In this document: piece by piece, positions 2,991 through 20,183 of the stretch
Numbering within the stretch: position 1 is the first letter of the stretch
Layout: every line of letters begins with the position of its first letter
From: a virus
Direction: 5' to 3' (one strand)
DNA length: 23,013 bases
Virus record (IMG/VR): IMGVR_UViG_3300031586_000022
Span: 1 to 23,013 of that record
The notes under the pieces: model-generated
The model's database searches: none
Told to the model about the DNA's origin: nothing
What the model saw: the letters and a program-made list of their open reading frames with translations, nothing else
Translations under genes and position numbers: made by a program

Positions 2991-3494
2991 ATGAGCATCT
3001 TCTTGACGAAAAAGGGAGAACCTCGCAAAAACCGCGTGGACAGGTCGACGAAACTGTCCGTGACATTCAGCGAGGGATATGTGGAAGGCTGGACGATCCG
3101 TGTGTTGGAGGCTTTCAAGGAAGCTCTCGATATTCGGCTGACCGAACTCATTCGGAGCGATCCCGAGAACCCGAAGAGCAAGCAGACTATCCTTGCATGG
3201 ACGGAGGGTTTGCCGCCCTGCTATGCCTTCGGCCCAGGGGACATTTTCTACGACACGCGCGCGGCTTACGAACTCCCCTGGGGTGAAGCTCTGTCTCGAT
3301 TGGGCTTTGCCATTCAGATCCAAGAGGCGAGCCCCGATGATTTCGGCGAGGGTAGGAAGCAGCCGGGTTGGGTCAGGGCCAACATCTATCGGCCGGACCG
3401 GTCTGGAGGGGCGTTACGCTTTGAGCGCGAGATCCTCGTGAGCCAGGATGAGTTTGTGAACATCCTGAAGACGGGCGACCTGGGCAAACCGTGA
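2991..3494 (+). CDS. Hypothetical protein, plus-strand island
   Basis: 167 residues, starting MSIFLTKKGEPRKNRVDRST. The N-terminus is basic and the centre is mixed alpha/beta with a Trp/Pro/Gly-rich loop (AWTEGLPPCYAFGPGDIFYD). No family recognised, and no signal peptide or membrane segment is visible. The ATG is preceded by GGAGGTCAGGTGA. It is the first of two plus-strand genes in an otherwise minus-strand genome, divergent from the HTH regulator. That layout resembles lysogenic-conversion (moron) or lysogeny-maintenance genes. It is followed, after 29 bases, by a membrane protein that may be its partner. Function is not inferred beyond this context. Confidence 0.7.
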   Translation: MSIFLTKKGEPRKNRVDRSTKLSVTFSEGYVEGWTIRVLEAFKEALDIRLTELIRSDPENPKSKQTILAWTEGLPPCYAFGPGDIFYDTRAAYELPWGEALSRLGFAIQIQEASPDDFGEGRKQPGWVRANIYRPDRSGGALRFEREILVSQDEFVNILKTGDLGKP

Positions 3495-6469: not shown

Positions 6470-6485
6470 GGCGCGAGTCCAGTTT

Positions 6486-6581
6486 GCCACAGAGGCACAG
6501 AGGACACAGAGAGAAGAAACAGAGGTGCTTTTGTTAAAAAGAAAAGGCCGTTGTTCTCTGTGCTCTCTGTGCCTCTGTGGC
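6486..6581 (-). repeat. CACAGAG inverted repeat, copy 1
   Basis: 96 bases running from GCCACAGAGGCACAGAG to CTCTGTGCCTCTGTGGC. The outer 17 bases pair perfectly and pairing continues with few mismatches for about 27 bases. The core contains TTGTTAAAAAGAAAA. It lies between the holin-like stop and the lipoprotein gene. Confidence 0.9.
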
Positions 6582-6590
6582 AGAGTTTTT

Positions 6591-6815: not shown

Positions 6816-7583
6816 TCAATCCTGTGAAATCACGTAGGCACTGACTGCGCTGTCGGCGAGCGTCGGGTTGTAGGTGACAGCGTAAGTGGCGTCGGTCGCG
6901 TCGACCTCGATGTAGAGTTCGAAGCCGTAGATGACCGACAGGGCATCCCATCCGTTCATCGCCTCGACGGCGGCCTGCGCCGGCCACTTGATCAACTCCG
7001 TTGACCACGGCGAATCATCGGTCGAAAGACCGGCGATGAGCGTCCACCACAGTTCATCGCCGAAACTCAGACCGCCATCGGTGACGTAGGCGATGTTCCA
7101 TGTCAGGCCATTGGGCGTCCAGTCGGTGAGCACCGGTCTTATGCAGAAGCGGACGGTGACGTTACCGGGCCAGGCCTCCGTCGGTGCACACGTGATGCTG
7201 AGGGTGTCCTTGTGGTCGAAGGTGAGGTCGCCGATGAGGCGATGAAACGTCGAGCCGAAGTGCGTGTCGCTGTGGACGAAGACGTTGTATTCGACGTCGT
7301 CGTTGTTCTCCAAGAAGAACTGCTGATAGCCCGAGGTGTCGTCCTTCGCGTCCTCCCGCACGGTCGTGTAGTTGTCCTTTGCGCTCGCCACCACGTGATA
7401 GCGTTTCAGCTTCGGGATCCGGGGCAGCAGGGCGTTGAGATTGAGGTGCGTGCCGAAGGTTCCGTCATGCTGCCGAAGGCCCACGAGGTCGCTGCCCGCA
7501 ATGTCGGGAGGCGCCATCGCGCGGTTGAGTTTCGCGGCCGTGAGGCGCTCGCCTTTTCGGAATCTGATCCCGAGCCTGCTCAT
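6816..7583 (-). CDS. Putative tail appendage / virion structural protein
   Basis: 255 residues, beta-rich and Trp/Tyr/Thr-rich (WPGNVTVRFCIRPV, GLTWNIAYVTDGGLSFGDEL), as in receptor-facing or baseplate parts. The first ~55 residues (IRFRKGERLTAAKLNRAMAP ... LNALLPRIP) are repeated in the 59-residue protein encoded just upstream at 7580-7759. The ATG overlaps that gene's stop as ATGA. No family recognised. Position after the tape measure and other tail-tip genes and before the holin suggests it is a distal tail or fibre-like component; no chaperone or glycan-hydrolase motif is seen. Confidence 0.65.
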   Translation of the reverse strand: MSRLGIRFRKGERLTAAKLNRAMAPPDIAGSDLVGLRQHDGTFGTHLNLNALLPRIPKLKRYHVVASAKDNYTTVREDAKDDTSGYQQFFLENNDDVEYNVFVHSDTHFGSTFHRLIGDLTFDHKDTLSITCAPTEAWPGNVTVRFCIRPVLTDWTPNGLTWNIAYVTDGGLSFGDELWWTLIAGLSTDDSPWSTELIKWPAQAAVEAMNGWDALSVIYGFELYIEVDATDATYAVTYNPTLADSAVSAYVISQD

Positions 7584-7759
7584 GTTCTCGGCACCCGTGG
7601 AAGAAGGGAATTGACGCCAATCACAAATCCGAACGCGCGCCCTCGACGGCGCATCCGAGCCGGTGAGCTGGCCGTCATGACCGGCGGCGCCGTCGCGCGG
7701 TTGAGCTTCGCCGCCGAGGGGCGCTGCCCTCTTCTGAATCGAACATCATGCACGCTCAT
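7580..7759 (-). CDS. Small paralogue of the next gene's N-terminus (59 aa)
   Basis: MSVHDVRFRRGQRPSAAKLN ... INSLLPRVP-like, ending LLPRVPRT. It aligns along its whole length with the first ~55 residues of the 255-residue protein downstream: VRFRRGQRPSAAKLNRATAP versus IRFRKGERLTAAKLNRAMAP, and VNSLLPRVP versus LNALLPRIP. Its ATG overlaps the preceding stop (TGATG) and its stop overlaps the next ATG (ATGA), so it is embedded in a coupled chain. It may be a free copy of an assembly or docking module, or the residue of a duplication that truncated a full-length copy. Confidence 0.75.
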   Translation of the reverse strand: MSVHDVRFRRGQRPSAAKLNRATAPPVMTASSPARMRRRGRAFGFVIGVNSLLPRVPRT

Positions 7760-8296: not shown

Positions 8297-8393
8297 GCCA
8301 CAGAGGCACAGAGAGCACAGAGAGAATCAAACAGCGCTGCTTCTGTTAAAAAGAAAAGGCTGTTGTTCTCCGTGTTCTCTGTGTCTCTGTGGC
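8297..8393 (-). repeat. CACAGAG inverted repeat, copy 2
   Basis: 97 bases with the same ends (GCCACAGAGGCACAGAG ... GTGTCTCTGTGGC) and the same core (CTGTTAAAAAGAAAA) as the copies at 6486 and 12512, in the same orientation. It fills the gap between two tail genes. Similarity to copy 3 continues a few bases past the right end (TxATGTTT). Confidence 0.9.
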
Positions 8394-8400
8394 TCATGTT

Positions 8401-9255
8401 TCAACCGATGGTTGGGGTCAGGCGCAGCGCGTTGAAATCGGTCTCCGGATAGACCTCGAATGCGGCGTAGGAAGCGCCAAGCGCTGTGCCTCTGTGTGAC
8501 CTCATTCCGTTCGTCACGCTCACGTCATGCGGGGGTCGGCCGGTCGAGGGGTCGATGTAAATGGCCTCCGCCCCCCAACTGTATCCCGTCACCTTCCCCT
8601 CCTTGTTGAGCACGGCAATGCCCCGTTCGAAGAGGAACTGCTCTTCGTAGCTGATGCCGTTGTTGTCGCTCTCGGAGTTGATCTGGCGGCAGAGCCATTC
8701 GCCCGCCTTCGAGCCGATGACGACGTCCCAGGGCCTGCTGTTGACGTGATCCGCGTAGTCGTCGGCGTCCATCATGGGGAAGATGGAACCGGTGCGCGTG
8801 ATGACGAGAACGCGGCTCGAACGCTGCACCGAGACGATGACCCCCTGGTGATAGGTCGTCTGCGTCGCGCCCTCGGTGTAGGTGACGTTCATCATGTTGC
8901 CGTCCCTGTCGAGGTTCGTTTCGACGTCGCGGGTTGCGGTGCTCATCGAGATGAGGACTCGTGATTCGTCGTCAACGCCGGGGCGCTGGCGGTAGCTGAG
9001 CCGCAATTTGACGACCTTGGGCGCCACCGATAGCGGGCTTATCTCGTCCAGATACAGGTCATCGACCGACGGATGCGCGTCGTCGATCGAGGGCACGGCG
9101 ACGCCGGTGACGGAATCGACGGCCTCGGCGGCGTCAACGAGACGTTTGTGCGCGTCGCCCGTGAGTTCGTAGACGGTGGCAAGGCGTTCGAGTTCCCATC
9201 CGTCGCGTGTCAGGCGGCCTGAGTTTTTGATGTTGTCCAGCTTCACGCGCGCCAT
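8401..9255 (-). CDS. Putative distal tail / baseplate protein
   Basis: 284 residues from ATG 9255 (MARVKLDNIKNSGRLTRDGW). It is mostly beta, with conserved-looking Asp/Arg-rich strands (VVKLRLSYRQRPGVDDE, VLISMSTATRDVETN) and a C-terminal globular part. It begins one base after the tape-measure stop (TGACATG) and so is coupled to it. In siphoviruses the gene after the tape measure is usually the distal tail protein, which is my reading from position; no family motif was recognised. At 284 residues it is the largest tail-tip protein here, with no long fibre or tip protein present. Confidence 0.65.
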   Translation of the reverse strand: MARVKLDNIKNSGRLTRDGWELERLATVYELTGDAHKRLVDAAEAVDSVTGVAVPSIDDAHPSVDDLYLDEISPLSVAPKVVKLRLSYRQRPGVDDESRVLISMSTATRDVETNLDRDGNMMNVTYTEGATQTTYHQGVIVSVQRSSRVLVITRTGSIFPMMDADDYADHVNSRPWDVVIGSKAGEWLCRQINSESDNNGISYEEQFLFERGIAVLNKEGKVTGYSWGAEAIYIDPSTGRPPHDVSVTNGMRSHRGTALGASYAAFEVYPETDFNALRLTPTIG

Positions 9256-9256
9256 G

Positions 9257-10636
9257 TCAGGCGAGCCCCTTCTCACGTCGAATGAGTTTCAGTTCCTCGA
9301 GGATGTCGGTGAGTTTTTCTTTCTGCTGTTCGCTGCTGCGCAGCATGCGGTCGTCGCGTTTCGATGAGGCGAGGCCGCGCGGATCGATGAGGCTGCGCTG
9401 GAAGATTCTGGCCGTGCCCGGGTCGCGGTAACCGCCAGGTGACGTTCTGTCGGCGCCGACCGCGTCGAGGTCCTTGCGGAGCTGAGCGCCGAGGTCCGCG
9501 AGACGCTTGTCGCGCACCGATTGCACGCTCGCTATCTTCTCGGCAGCCTCTTTCGCGACCACTGCCGTTTCCTTCAGCGATCCTGTGAGGGCGTCGTTCT
9601 GAACCTTGACGTGGGCAATCGCGGCGCTCGCGTCGCCGGCCTTGTCCTCGAGGTCGCTGAATGCCTTGTTGATGCCGATGACGGCGCCGGTGGCGATGAC
9701 GGCGCCGGCGGCGAGGGTCGCCCATCCGGCGGGCCCGCTGAAGGCCTGAGAGATGGCCTTGGCGGCGGCGAGCGCCTTATAGGCGGCGACGATGGCGTAG
9801 ATGGCGCCCCGAACGAGCTTGATGACCTTGATGGCAATGGTGAGGCCGATGACCCACTTCGCGATGGTCTTGATGGTCTGGACCGTCCCCTTGTTGAGAT
9901 TGCGAACCCATTCGATGGCGGACTGAAGGCGCTTGACGAACCTGAGAATCGCGGGCACGAGGGCGGCGCCGATGGATTCCTTGATGTCGCCAAGGGTGTT
10001 CTTCAGTTGCTCCATCTGCCCGCGAAACGTGCTGGTCTCCCCCTTGGCGAGGGCGAAGGCCTCGGACCCCATATCGAGGACGGCGTTGAATTTCTCCTGC
10101 TGCGTCATCGTCTGGTCGAGCTTGATACCGTATCGGGCGAGGGTTGCCGTATCGCCGACCGCAGCTCGAGCGACGAGGCGCATGGCGGTGACGGTATCGA
10201 CCTGCATGCGCTTCGAGAGGCCGATCGCGGCCGTCGTGGCCTTCTTGAGGCCCTCCCCCGAGAGCTTTCCGAGCGACGCGCCGAGGGATGCAAGCTCGAG
10301 GACCGCCTCGTCGCCGACGGTCGTCACCTTCTGGATGCCGGCGGCGAAGCGCTGCATATCCTTCATGGTGTCGGCGCCGCCCTTGCCTAAGAGGTCGAGG
10401 GCGTCGGACAGAGACTTCACCGCCGCCTCCTGCCGGCCGTAGGCGCTGACGACGGACTTGATGCCCATGATGATGCCGGCTGCGCCGAGGGCGACGCCGA
10501 ATGTGCCTAACAGCCCGGTGACGCTGCTGACGGCGCCGCCGAAGAGTTTCGTCTTCCTTCGCGCTTTCGCCATGCCGCGCTCGTAATGGCCGGTCGAGGC
10601 CTTCAAATTCACAAGCAATGAAGCGATAGTTGACAT
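9257..10636 (-). CDS. Tail tape measure protein
   Basis: 459 residues. The N-terminus (SLLVNLKASTGHYERGMAKA) is typical of TP901/TMP-type tape measures. Long helical stretches follow, with hydrophobic segments at about 34-60 and 255-335 (WVIGLTIAIKVIKLVRGAIY, WATLAAGAVIATGAVIGINK) and a charged helical C-terminus. It runs down the tail lumen during assembly and sets tail length; at about 1.5 Angstrom per residue it predicts a tail near 70 nm, short for a siphovirus. The ATG overlaps the chaperone T stop (TGATG). Its position directly after a frameshifted chaperone pair is the classic order. Confidence 0.9.
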   Translation of the reverse strand: MSTIASLLVNLKASTGHYERGMAKARRKTKLFGGAVSSVTGLLGTFGVALGAAGIIMGIKSVVSAYGRQEAAVKSLSDALDLLGKGGADTMKDMQRFAAGIQKVTTVGDEAVLELASLGASLGKLSGEGLKKATTAAIGLSKRMQVDTVTAMRLVARAAVGDTATLARYGIKLDQTMTQQEKFNAVLDMGSEAFALAKGETSTFRGQMEQLKNTLGDIKESIGAALVPAILRFVKRLQSAIEWVRNLNKGTVQTIKTIAKWVIGLTIAIKVIKLVRGAIYAIVAAYKALAAAKAISQAFSGPAGWATLAAGAVIATGAVIGINKAFSDLEDKAGDASAAIAHVKVQNDALTGSLKETAVVAKEAAEKIASVQSVRDKRLADLGAQLRKDLDAVGADRTSPGGYRDPGTARIFQRSLIDPRGLASSKRDDRMLRSSEQQKEKLTDILEELKLIRREKGLA

Positions 10637-10962
10637 CAGTCGTCCTTCCTCATCGTCTCGCCGATGCTTTTCAATATAGCTCCCTGCGTCTCGGCCGTCT
10701 GGCCGACCGGTCCCTCGTGCAGGAACGGCATGAAGTCAAGGACGCCCAGCGGCCGGTCGCCTTCGCCGCTCCACGCATTGGCAACGAGTGCCGAGAGCTG
10801 CGCGATTCTCAGGTCGGCGCGCTCATCTCCGAAAGGTTCGAGCGAATCGAAAGCCATCCACTCGCTGATCTCCTCGCTGCTTATTGAATGCAGCAGCTCG
10901 CGGTGCGTTCTACCTAATGCCAGGGCTAATCTGAAGGTGAAGAACCGCCCTGGCCGGCGCCG
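10636..10962 (-). CDS. Tail assembly chaperone, T part (-1 frameshift extension)
   Basis: Reading in the -1 frame from the slippery site at 10962, the frame is open down to the stop at 10636 (108 codons). It encodes RLALALGRTHRELLHSISSE, EISEWMAFDSLEPFGDER and ADLRIAQLSALVANAW, which matches the DUF4035/T-type chaperone: an N-terminal LALALGRT-x-x-ELL motif and the E-x-F/W-G-D/E-E-R-A-D-L-R motif. An internal ATG at 10857 would remove the conserved LALALGRT...ISEWM part, so frameshift fusion to the upstream G protein (total about 228 residues) is the better model. It would coat the tape measure during tail assembly. The stop overlaps the tape-measure ATG. Confidence 0.85.
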   Translation of the reverse strand, partial: RRRPGRFFTFRLALALGRTHRELLHSISSEEISEWMAFDSLEPFGDERADLRIAQLSALVANAWSGEGDRPLGVLDFMPFLHEGPVGQTAETQGAILKSIGETMRKDD

Positions 10963-10968
10963 AAATTT
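10919..10968 (-). promoter_or_regulatory. Programmed -1 ribosomal frameshift signal
   Basis: In the zero frame the codons are GAA AAT TTC, giving the X-XXY-YYZ heptamer A-AAT-TTC at 10968-10962. After a 7-base spacer (GGCGCCG), GCCAGGGC (10954-10947) pairs perfectly with GCCCTGGC (10926-10919) across a 20-base loop. The zero-frame stop TAG (10928-10926) lies at the base of the right arm. The order, slippery site then short spacer then stem-loop just before the stop, is the standard arrangement. Confidence 0.85.
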
Positions 10969-11321
10969 TCGGCCAGCTCCTTCACGTCCTCGGCGGTCAT
11001 GCGGCTCAACCGCCGGGCGACCATGAATATCCTTTGAAGCCCGGCGGCGGACTTCCGACCCAGGGCGGCGATGTCATCGTCGCTGAACATGCGCGCGCCG
11101 TCGGCGTCCACAATCGACCGCGCGCAGAGCTTCGCGCGCATGTTCTCGAGGTCGCTGACGGCCTCCTCGCCCTCGCCCTTGACGATGCTCGCCTCGTAGG
11201 CGTCGCGCTCATCTCCTCTCAGGCTGCGCACGAGAACGGCGCCGTCCCATTCGGGAACCTCGACCTCCTCGGTCACGAGGTCGTCGGCGGCCAGAATCTC
11301 ATCCTGCGTCAACTGCTTCAC
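10926..11321 (-). CDS. Tail assembly chaperone, G part
   Basis: 131 residues with a GTG start at 11321 behind AGGAGGGAGAGAC. VEVPEWDGAVLVRSLRGDER is the typical start of siphovirus tail assembly chaperones (VP-E-W-x-G-x-V-x-V-R-x-L-x-G-x-E-R), and a helical domain follows. It lies between the tail tube and tape measure genes, as lambda gpG does. Its last 11 codons after the slippery site are Gly/Ser-rich and end at TAG 10926; a fraction of ribosomes would instead shift into the T frame at residue 120. The short form binds tape measure in bulk and the long form recruits tube protein, by analogy with lambda. Confidence 0.88.
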   Translation of the reverse strand: MKQLTQDEILAADDLVTEEVEVPEWDGAVLVRSLRGDERDAYEASIVKGEGEEAVSDLENMRAKLCARSIVDADGARMFSDDDIAALGRKSAAGLQRIFMVARRLSRMTAEDVKELAENFGAGQGGSSPSD

Positions 11322-11371: not shown

Positions 11372-11806
11372 TCAACCCTGGTTCGTCCACGTGACGGCGC
11401 CCGTGATTCTGAGTTTTGCGCTGAATCGAATCGCGTCGCGCAATGCCAGGTTCAGCTTGAAGTTCTTGACGTTCGCCGAGAAGTCGAGCTGTTTCTGTCC
11501 CGACCCGCCCGCGAGGTTGATGTAGTAACCCTGGGCGGCGCCCCCGGCGTCGCCGCGCAGGAGTTCCTGCCCGGCCGCCGCCGTGTAGTTGCCCTCGATG
11601 GTGATCTCCCCGCCATCGACGCATCCGGAGTTTATGTCCTCGCTGACGGATGCGGAATCCTGAGAGGTGGCGTCGACGTCCACGTCGGACGCCTCGGGCG
11701 GGTCGATGCTCGTGAGTTCCTCGATGAGGGTTCCGCCCGTCTTCGGCGTGCCGGAGCCGCCGCGATAGAGCTTCGTGCCGAATGCACTCTTTGCGCTCGA
11801 TGGCAT
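11372..11806 (-). CDS. Tail tube (major tail) protein, undecorated paralogue
   Basis: 144 residues. The sequence MPSSAKSAFGTKLYRGG, ELTSIDPPEASDVDVDAT, EDINSGCVDGGEITIEGNY and the C-terminal LDFSANVKNFKLNLALRDAI match the lambda gpV-like/TP901 tube fold (I-D-P-P-E-x-S-D-V-D motif; G-G/H-E-I-x-x-E-G strand). It forms stacked hexameric rings. It is a clear paralogue of the protein encoded immediately upstream (11817-12494), which has the same framework but an extra ~81-85 residue insertion. GAGGAGACTGAC precedes the ATG. It lies ahead of the chaperone pair, as usual for the tube gene. Confidence 0.85.
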   Translation of the reverse strand: MPSSAKSAFGTKLYRGGSGTPKTGGTLIEELTSIDPPEASDVDVDATSQDSASVSEDINSGCVDGGEITIEGNYTAAAGQELLRGDAGGAAQGYYINLAGGSGQKQLDFSANVKNFKLNLALRDAIRFSAKLRITGAVTWTNQG

Positions 11807-11816
11807 GTCAGTCTCC

Positions 11817-12494
11817 TCAACTATAGGTCACGGCCGCCGTGACCCTGATTTTGAAGCTGTAACCCAATGCGCCGCGCAGCGGCGCGTTCGATTTGAACGC
11901 CTTGACGTTTCCGGCGAAGTCGAGCCGCGTGCCAATCTGAACCGTGTGCGTGCCGGTGCCCGTGTCGGTGATGTCGACCTTGCCGCTGTCGGCGACGGCG
12001 CCGGCGTTGGTGGTGTGCAGAGTGAATGTATCGGCAGAGATATAGTGGACCCAGTAGGTGGTGTTGGCCGACAGGCCCGCCGGCAGCGTGTCGGTGGTCG
12101 TCAGCCGGACCGGCTGCCCGGTCGTCAGCGCGTGGCCCGCGGCGGTGACGACGTCGGTGCTCGCGTTGGCGGTGAACGTCTTCGTGCGCGCTCCCCAGTT
12201 CGGAGCGCAGAGCTGCCAGTTGCCGACGGCGCCTCCGACGTTTCCGCGCACCGCCGTCTGCGTCGCGTCGTTGACAAAGTTCCCCTCGCTGACGATCTCC
12301 CCGTGGTCCACGCAGCCCGAGTTGATGTCCTCGGTAGCATCGGGCGAATCGTGCGAGGTGACGTCAATGTCAACGTCGCTCATCTCGGGCGGGTCGATGT
12401 TGATGAGTTCAGCGACGGTCGTGAACTTCTCGGGGCTCGCAGCGTCACCATACTGGAGCTTTGTCCCGAATCCGGATTTTGCACTGGTCGTCAT
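11817..12494 (-). CDS. Tail tube paralogue with inserted beta domain
   Basis: 225 residues from ATG 12494, chosen because AAAGGAGG lies upstream; a longer reading enters the repeat. MTTSAKSGFGTKLQYGD, LINIDPPEMSDVDIDVTSHD, DINSGCVDHGEIVSEGNF and the C-terminal LDFAGNVKAFKSNAPLRGAL match the tube protein at 11372-11806. Between them, residues about 105-189 form an extra beta domain (VVTAAGHALTTGQPVRL, LPAGLSANTTYWVHYISAD, TDTGTGTHTV) absent from its sister but similar to an insert in the head-tail connector at 13773-14567. Such inserts would project from the tube surface. It may form a minor ring, tail terminus or decorated share of the tube. Confidence 0.85.
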   Translation of the reverse strand: MTTSAKSGFGTKLQYGDAASPEKFTTVAELINIDPPEMSDVDIDVTSHDSPDATEDINSGCVDHGEIVSEGNFVNDATQTAVRGNVGGAVGNWQLCAPNWGARTKTFTANASTDVVTAAGHALTTGQPVRLTTTDTLPAGLSANTTYWVHYISADTFTLHTTNAGAVADSGKVDITDTGTGTHTVQIGTRLDFAGNVKAFKSNAPLRGALGYSFKIRVTAAVTYS

Positions 12495-12511
12495 GGTTCG
12501 TCCTCCTTTTT

Positions 12512-12608
12512 GCCACAGAGCCGCAGAGCGCACAGAGAGAAGCAAACAGCGCTGTTTCTGTTAAAAAGAAAAAGCCGTTGTTCTCCGTGTTCTCCGTGTC
12601 TCCGTGGC
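12512..12608 (-). repeat. CACAGAG inverted repeat, copy 3
   Basis: 97 bases, GCCACAGAGCCGCAGAG to CTCCGTGTCTCCGTGGC, same orientation as the other two. The core contains the perfect 14-base palindrome AAACAGCGCTGTTT. It lies just before the Shine-Dalgarno of the decorated tube gene. Confidence 0.9.
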
Positions 12609-12618
12609 TGATGTTTTC

Positions 12619-18502: not shown

Positions 18503-20183
18503 TGTCAGCTCCTTCCACAGTGAGCGCGAGTTCCCTTGTGACGGGGTTCAGGTCCGTGATAATGCGGTCGGCAATCGATGCCGGTTTCTGAGTGTGCCAG
18601 AGGTCCATGCACTCTTGCACGCTTTCGGGAGTCCAGGCCCTGTGGCCGTCCGCGCCGTTGAGTTCCTGCTGCGCTCGAGCGACGTGCTCGGCGGCGAGTG
18701 TGCGCAGATAGCCCGGCGGCACGACGCACGCGCGCACCGTGCACAGGGCGCCGGCCAGCGCGATGACGGCGGGCTCCATCAACTCGATGAAGTAGTCGGC
18801 GTGGTCGGCATAGAATCTTTCAATAGCCTGTCGCGGCTGTTCCCTGAGCGGCAGCTTCACGCTGCGCTTGAACGCGAGGACTTCCTTCGTCACGACGCGC
18901 CGCGCGCAGCTCTCCAGCAGCGGCCGGTGTGATGCGATGATGCAGTCGATTGCGTGCCGCGAACCCGTGGCCTTCGCCGCCAGCACGGCGTCGGCGCCGG
19001 CCATGTTCATCGGCACCATATACATGTCGCCCTGTTTGCCCGGCAGTGGATTCGTGTTCTCGAGCTCGCACACGTCGTTCGCGCTCAGCCATCCCCACTG
19101 CCGGCCGATTGCATACGCCTTGTATCTGCTCTCCATGTCACCGCGCAGGAACCCTGCAACAACGTGCTCGGCGAAGACCTCACCATGCTCTGCAGTCGAG
19201 AACAGTTTCCAATTGCATTCCTGCTCTATCGTGACGAGCCAGGGCATGACTGAATCCTGAATGAACTCGATGTTCTGTTCCTCGATGTTTCCGAACGTCG
19301 CGCGCTCGAGGTCTTTCAGCTTATGCGGCGGCAGGTTGAACCATCGGGCGATGTCGGTCACCTGAAACTGCCGGGTCTCGAGGAACTGCGCGTCGTTGGG
19401 GGGGATGCCGATCTTCTCCCACTTCATACCCTCCTCGAGGATCATCATTCGGTGTGCCTTGCCGAGCCCCTTTATCTTCTCCTCCTGGGTCTCCTTGAGC
19501 CGCTCGTAGGCCTTGTCGCTCAACTTCGCGGGATGCTGAAGCACCGACCCGGGCTGGGCGCCGCTGCCGAAGAAGCTGCTGCCGAACCGTTCGGTCGCCA
19601 GGCCGAGCCCGATGCTTTCGCGGGCGAGGCGGATGACTGAGTATCCGACCAGGCCGTCAAAGGAGACCCCCTTGAAGTGCAGAACCTGCTCGGGCAGTAG
19701 CGTGGTCGCGTGGCCGTTCTTGTCCCGGACCTCGTAGTAGAGCTGCCCCGAGCTCGTCCGTTTCGGTTCGGTGCGGTCGGGCCTCAGCGGCCAGAGAGCG
19801 AGGGGTTTGCCCGCGCCGTTGAGTTCAATCTCTGCATAGGCGTTGCCCCACATCAGGACGTGTCCCATGAGGCATTGCCGGAAATCGAGCGAACCCATTT
19901 CGGGATTGGGCCGGTCGTGAAGGAGGGTGTAATTCGGATGTGTCCGGAACCGCTCTTTGCCACGAGGCGTGAGGCGTTTGAACACCGGAAAAGGCAGCAC
20001 CGCTTCCGTTTGCGAGAGCAGCGTGACCGCGCAGTAGATGGCAGAGTATGTGAGCGCCGTGTCGGCGGTCACCGTGATGCCGGCAGCGCTCGCCCAGCTC
20101 CACAATCCCGGACGCCGGGGGTCATAAAGGATGCTTCCGGAGCGCCGCCCAAGCAGCGCCCTGAGTGCCTCGAGGATAATCAT
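18477..20183 (-). CDS. Portal protein (HK97 family)
   Basis: 568 residues. TALTYSAIYCAVTLLSQTEA, LHDRPNPEMGSLDFRQCLMG, LMWGNAYAEIELNGAGKPLA and FQVTDIARWFNLPPHKLKDL, then ERATFGNIEEQNIEFIQDSV match HK97-type portals along their length. It forms the dodecameric gate for DNA entry. Residues about 430-568 extend past the usual ~420-residue family length (RFYADHADYFIELMEPAVIA region and a Glu/Thr-rich end), as in some larger portals. The ATG overlaps the small membrane gene stop (ATGA). It carries one copy of the 39-base repeat (19734-19772), here read as RTEPKRTSSGQLYY. Confidence 0.95.
   Translation of the reverse strand: MIILEALRALLGRRSGSILYDPRRPGLWSWASAAGITVTADTALTYSAIYCAVTLLSQTEAVLPFPVFKRLTPRGKERFRTHPNYTLLHDRPNPEMGSLDFRQCLMGHVLMWGNAYAEIELNGAGKPLALWPLRPDRTEPKRTSSGQLYYEVRDKNGHATTLLPEQVLHFKGVSFDGLVGYSVIRLARESIGLGLATERFGSSFFGSGAQPGSVLQHPAKLSDKAYERLKETQEEKIKGLGKAHRMMILEEGMKWEKIGIPPNDAQFLETRQFQVTDIARWFNLPPHKLKDLERATFGNIEEQNIEFIQDSVMPWLVTIEQECNWKLFSTAEHGEVFAEHVVAGFLRGDMESRYKAYAIGRQWGWLSANDVCELENTNPLPGKQGDMYMVPMNMAGADAVLAAKATGSRHAIDCIIASHRPLLESCARRVVTKEVLAFKRSVKLPLREQPRQAIERFYADHADYFIELMEPAVIALAGALCTVRACVVPPGYLRTLAAEHVARAQQELNGADGHRAWTPESVQECMDLWHTQKPASIADRIITDLNPVTRELALTVEGADNGESGEVA
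19734..19772 (-). repeat. 39-base direct repeat, copy B (in portal gene)
   Basis: Near-identical to 547-585 (38 of 39 bases), same orientation, but read in another frame. In the portal it encodes RTEPKRTSSGQLYY, a well-conserved part of the family, so this copy may be the original. Confidence 0.9.

Follow-up and report, generated by a model that had tools for sequence, protein, structure and literature searches.

The uncultured tailed phage represented by the IMG/VR virus record IMGVR_UViG_3300031586_000022, whose 23,013 bases make up the whole stretch of DNA analysed here (the window), very probably encodes a tail assembly chaperone pair of the lambda G/GT type, in which a programmed -1 frameshift at A AAT TTC would join the two halves. 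The signal is of a known kind, and it is real and conserved in relatives; it is the slip sequence that is less usual. The pair lies on the minus strand, in a head-tail module of siphophage type where tail tube genes are followed by G, T and the tape measure gene (Table 1). In particular, the G-like chaperone sits between a tail tube gene of phrog_158 and a gene of a tape measure family. G matches phrog_344, with a score against Pfam Phage_TAC_1 of 18.6 bits, which is below the cut-off, and the -1 frame leads into a T-type chaperone, as had been proposed from the letters of the sequence, by its matches to both PF06223 and phrog_337. What is more, a single PHROG (14766) covers the G and the T halves together.

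A preliminary description of this DNA had put a heptamer A-AAT-TTC in the zero frame of G, followed by a 7-base spacer, and both elements lie exactly where it placed them, the zero-frame codons at the slip site reading GAA AAT TTC. The -1 frame is open across the end of G, and translation through a slip at A AAT TTC gives a G-T fusion of 228 aa, in agreement with the predicted product of about this size. By itself, such a heptamer is weak evidence, because 11 of the 3791 codons in the window's genes carry an in-frame X XXY YYZ motif, and the chance of finding one within approximately 12 codons of T is about 3% when taken alone. Therefore, both G and T served to gather relatives, drawn from viral contigs as well as from genomes and phage isolates.

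Table 1. Features of the G/T locus and its neighbours in the window.
Feature	Coordinates	Strand	Basis
Tail tube protein, second, paralogue of 11372..11806	11817..12545	-	phrog_158; 50% identity to 11372..11806
Tail tube protein, next gene upstream of G	11372..11806	-	phrog_158 1.8e-15
G frame, tail assembly chaperone, 131 aa, GTG start	10926..11321	-	ORF; phrog_344 1.6e-28
SD-like AAGGAG, 8 nt upstream of heptamer, possible stimulator	10977..10982	-	sequence
Slippery heptamer A AAT TTC, zero frame of G	10962..10968	-	sequence; homologous position conserved in relatives
7-nt spacer GGCGCCG	10955..10961	-	sequence
Stem left arm GCCAGGGC	10947..10954	-	folding; register covaries in relatives
Stem right arm GCCCTGGC	10919..10926	-	folding; register covaries in relatives
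G stop codon TAG, 3' end of loop; last base pairs in right arm	10926..10928	-	sequence
T domain, -1 frame after predicted slip	10636..10962	-	PF06223 Minor tail protein T 2.5e-17; phrog_337 2.5e-25
ORF that a gene caller would give for T, 73 aa, fragment without first two helices	10636..10857	-	first T-frame ATG at 10857
Tape measure protein, 459 aa, next gene downstream of G/T	9257..10636	-	phrog_1533 2e-13

Both domains are present in 164 loci. Relative to G, T is read in -1 in 160 of these and in +1 in 3; the one locus with T seemingly in the same frame as G (L166) is an artefact of a run of masked bases (N). A canonical heptamer is found upstream of T in 68 of 85 non-redundant -1 loci, at -12 nt in 56 of them and at -9 nt in 12, as compared to a background of 18 heptamers in 8909 codons of the G bodies (0.2% per codon). 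It is this comparison that removes the doubt over chance. Namely, a sequencing error or a chance motif, for which the 3% expected of one short motif might still speak, has a practically vanishing probability when 160 loci, of independent origin in metagenomes, genomes and phage isolates, show the same arrangement.

Two slip registers, one codon apart, dominate the 85 loci. Sites of the one register read A AAA AAC or G GGA AAC, and those of the other carry T TTC or T TTT in the A site, after AAT, GGT or GAT. The idea that AAATTTC would be shared across tail-chaperone alignments holds for the place more than for the letters: the exact heptamer recurs in one relative, and the homologous place is otherwise occupied by varied heptamers, among them AAATTTT (4 loci), GGGTTTC (3) and the non-canonical G GAT TTC (6). 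More specifically, AAT stands before TTY in the window and in L007, L074, L077, L106 and L118, and GGT does so in L046 (Rhodococcus phage Jflix2), L080 and L097, while GGATTTC is found 9 nt before T in L037, L043, L050, L082, L122 and L159, with GGATTTT in L078. At the GAT-type sites canonical re-pairing in the P site is not possible, and the G GAT TTC sites probably act through slippage on T TTC in the A site. The nearest relatives of the window by G (L051 and L056) carry GGGAAAA or GGGAAAC, two codons further downstream than the register of the window. A single origin of the TTTY class was considered and set aside, with 13 minimal changes against 16.4 after shuffling on a G tree that is too poorly resolved for this question, and its resolution is likewise insufficient for counting how often the register changed. 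Be that as it may, the turnover at one and the same place (AAAAAAC, GGGAAAC, AAATTTY, GGGTTTC, GGATTTC) points to selection on slipperiness rather than on the encoded peptide.

Could the two halves be joined by transcriptional rather than ribosomal slippage? The window does contain a run of four A, and AAAAAA is present in many relatives. However, a run of 4 or 6 is rather short for a polymerase to slip on, the members with GGGTTTC, GGATTTC or GGGAAAC have no long run, and the heptamers keep to codon phase, all of which makes a transcriptional origin of the fusion exceedingly improbable. A different question is whether T is made as a separate protein from ATG 10857, via reinitiation after the G stop or by way of an internal GAGGAG, in which case the RRRPGRFFTFRLALALGR stretch would not be fused to G. 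The ATG is indeed present, with the weak and distant SD-like GAGGAG 12 nt upstream of it, and Rhodococcus phage REQ1 is annotated with two separate ORFs. That said, Rhodococcus phage Jflix2, with a homologous G, is annotated with a joined gene, and in 62 of the 85 loci, including the window, no ATG, GTG or TTG precedes the LALALG core in the open T frame. In the window, none of these start codons is found in that frame anywhere before 10857. A start at this ATG would, just as had been argued, deprive T of its conserved beginning: the L, A, G and W that are invariant in the T domain all precede the ATG, and the methionine at 10857 is itself not conserved. In addition, AlphaFold predicts helices at residues 4-15, 20-26 and 29-41 of T, and the ATG corresponds to residue 36, in the middle of the last of these, such that a start there would also drop the two others. 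In view of all this, we consider a separately initiated T very unlikely and retain the frameshifted fusion as our reading. In practical terms, gene callers would list the truncated T of 73 aa and overlook the fusion.

The structure downstream of the heptamer requires a more differentiated assessment. The 8-bp stem and the 20-nt loop (10946-10927) are as described, with one correction: contrary to what had been stated, part of the stem comes after the G stop. The TAG occupies the 3' end of the loop, and its last base is the first of the right arm. As an isolated element of 36 nt, the stem has a folding energy of -18.9 kcal/mol (z of -4.2 versus dinucleotide shuffles); for a fold of 57 nt, z is only -1.5. 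When synonymous codons were re-drawn after the G stop, an equally good stem appeared in 53% of the draws (p = 0.53), because the right arm is simply the favoured coding of Ala-Leu-Ala, and we accordingly dropped the window's stem as stand-alone evidence. One could argue on these grounds, and on those of the 75-nt fold of the window with its z of +0.13, that the frameshift at A AAT TTC is real and the hairpin a functionless by-product of GC-rich codons. The family, however, speaks against this. Namely, with shared ancestry partly corrected for, the downstream structure of 68 loci has a mean z of -1.24 versus synonymous codons, with 84% of the values negative, and under the same partial correction the best stem reaches p<0.05 against the synonymous null in 15 of the 68 loci, where 3.4 are expected. 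Moreover, the strongest covariation, again with shared ancestry partly corrected for, falls in exactly the stem register of the window (z of 4.3 versus row shuffles, with 0 of 500 as high), and relatives show alternative stem pairs such as CCAGGGC/GCCCTGG, CCAGCGC/GCGCTGG and CCAGAGC/GCTCTGG. In other words, downstream structure is selected at the level of the family, where a stimulatory structure of this kind is not universal, and the window's own stem does not go beyond its codon expectation. The putative role of the stem as a stimulator is thus supported by the family and not by the window alone, and we regard a hairpin devoid of function as unlikely, if still worth keeping in mind.

An additional element, absent from the preliminary description, is the SD-like AAGGAG at 10982-10977. 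In the window it is no stronger than what synonymous codons give (p = 0.55), and in the family, where an SD-like pentamer is present in 57 of the 85 loci, z is only -0.26. For this reason, we do not claim a conserved SD stimulator as selected.

As for the occurrence of slippage, its rate and the roles of the proteins, we infer the following by analogy with lambda G/GT, an analogy that the preliminary description had drawn and that gains support from the homology of both halves and from the conservation of the -1 frame of T and of the place of the slip site. Most ribosomes would produce G alone (131 aa), whereas in a few per cent the tRNA-Asn and tRNA-Phe on AAU UUC would shift back by one base and pair anew with AAA UUU, after which translation through T would yield the 228-aa G-T protein. 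As in pairs of the lambda type, this fusion would be needed for tails. The hairpin 7 nt downstream would favour the slip, and the upstream SD-like AAGGAG perhaps as well. As in lambda, G would coat the tape measure protein, with subunits of the tail tube recruited by the T half.

The slip site of lambda is G GGA AAG, and the window's A AAT TTC does differ from this G-type site, as had been remarked. The two systems (for lambda G and GT as tail assembly chaperones, see Levin 1993 and Xu 2004, 2013, as cited in PMC5009743) are alike in the location before the tape measure gene, in having G in the zero frame and T in -1, in the late slip site and in the T family, PF06223; apart from the slip sequence, they differ in that the window's G is in phrog_344. 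In the HK97-like cluster, too, two frames of a tail chaperone are fused by -1 frameshifting, which was measured at 6-7% in E. coli (PMC3711429). Homologous pairs annotated as a two-piece joined CDS are found in Rhodococcus phage Jflix2 (OQ938594, genes 18/19) and in Streptomyces phages Dubu and phiSASD1, whose G proteins are 45-48% identical to that of the window. Jflix2 has GGGTTTC where the window has AAATTTC, with GGT rather than AAT as the P-site codon, and Dubu has GGGAAAC one codon earlier than the site of the window. No relevant report in the literature searched describes frameshifting at AAATTTC or AAAUUUC. According to PMC4066793, heptamers of the form H_HH.U_UU.Y, A_AA.U_UU.C included, are among the most efficient in E. 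coli, where U_UUC is the second best tetramer and both A_AA.A_AA.C and G_GG.A_AA.C are weak. By these rules, which are those of E. coli and may differ in the host of the phage, the site in the window would be stronger than the one usual in its family. The present loci extend A AAT TTY, G GGT TTC and G GAT TTC sites to uncultured phages.

Following up the three +1 loci among the 164 revealed a sister clade of 8 lineages (L045, with the junction at 3283-3345, L169, L172, L186, L188, L189, L190 and L217), whose T is in +1 and whose G/T junction carries TCC TTT C, extended to TCC TTT CGT in six of them. The T domains of this clade are short, at approximately 60-70 aa. Two more distant lineages keep only TTT C (ACG TTT CAG in L195, AGC TTT CCT in L220), and it is absent from the junction of L193. 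Judged by codon usage, the TCC TTT pair has a probability of 0.05-0.11 per +1 locus, with a product of about 1e-9 if the loci are independent. UCC_UUU_CGU is the +1 frameshift site of influenza PA-X (PMC3498833), TTT-CGC has been proposed for the tail chaperone pair of halovirus HF1 (PMC7230728), and in bacteria UUU_Y is known to favour slippage by +1 (PMC5009743). Influenza PA-X and HF1 have the same motif as the G/T junction of the sister clade, and their direction is +1. The mechanism proposed for the window is another one, its T being read in -1 rather than in +1 with UUU_C at the junction. The literature searched contained no report of this +1 motif in a tail chaperone of a bacterial phage.

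Judging by this sister clade, the direction of the frameshift seems to have changed within the chaperone family. We lean towards the view that one homologous family has replaced its recoding repeatedly and kept the fusion, the versions being -1 at A AAA AAC, -1 at T TTY one codon later (the class of the window, including G GAT TTC) and +1 at UCC_UUU_CGU in the sister clade. The position and the fusion would then be the fixed elements, and the heptamer, the codon and even the direction the drifting ones. If this is true, the family amounts to a natural experiment on the evolution of frameshift sites and directions, and the sister clade, which provides one protein pair in both -1 and +1 versions, makes a direct comparison possible.

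Several minor features of the window deserve mention. The two tail tube genes (12545-11817 and 11806-11372) are tandem paralogues, the first with an extra 80 or so amino acids between two matched blocks; a match to an insert common to tail tube and connector proteins was weak (E of 0.03) and is not claimed. An interspersed repeat of approximately 105 nt, with hairpin arms GCCACAGAGGCACAGAG, is present in three copies (6485-6589, 8297-8401 and 12512-12616). A near form of it, which might hint at the host, occurs in 11 stretches of viral contigs, and a comparison of the element with two genomes as a host clue gave no match. A near-identical repeat of 42 nt (95%) is found at 544-585 and 19731-19772, some 19 kb apart, with one copy within the portal gene. 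Finally, a direct repeat of 93 nt (74%) joins 7491-7583 and 7667-7759, the former copy overlapping the 5' end of the ORF at 7583-6816.
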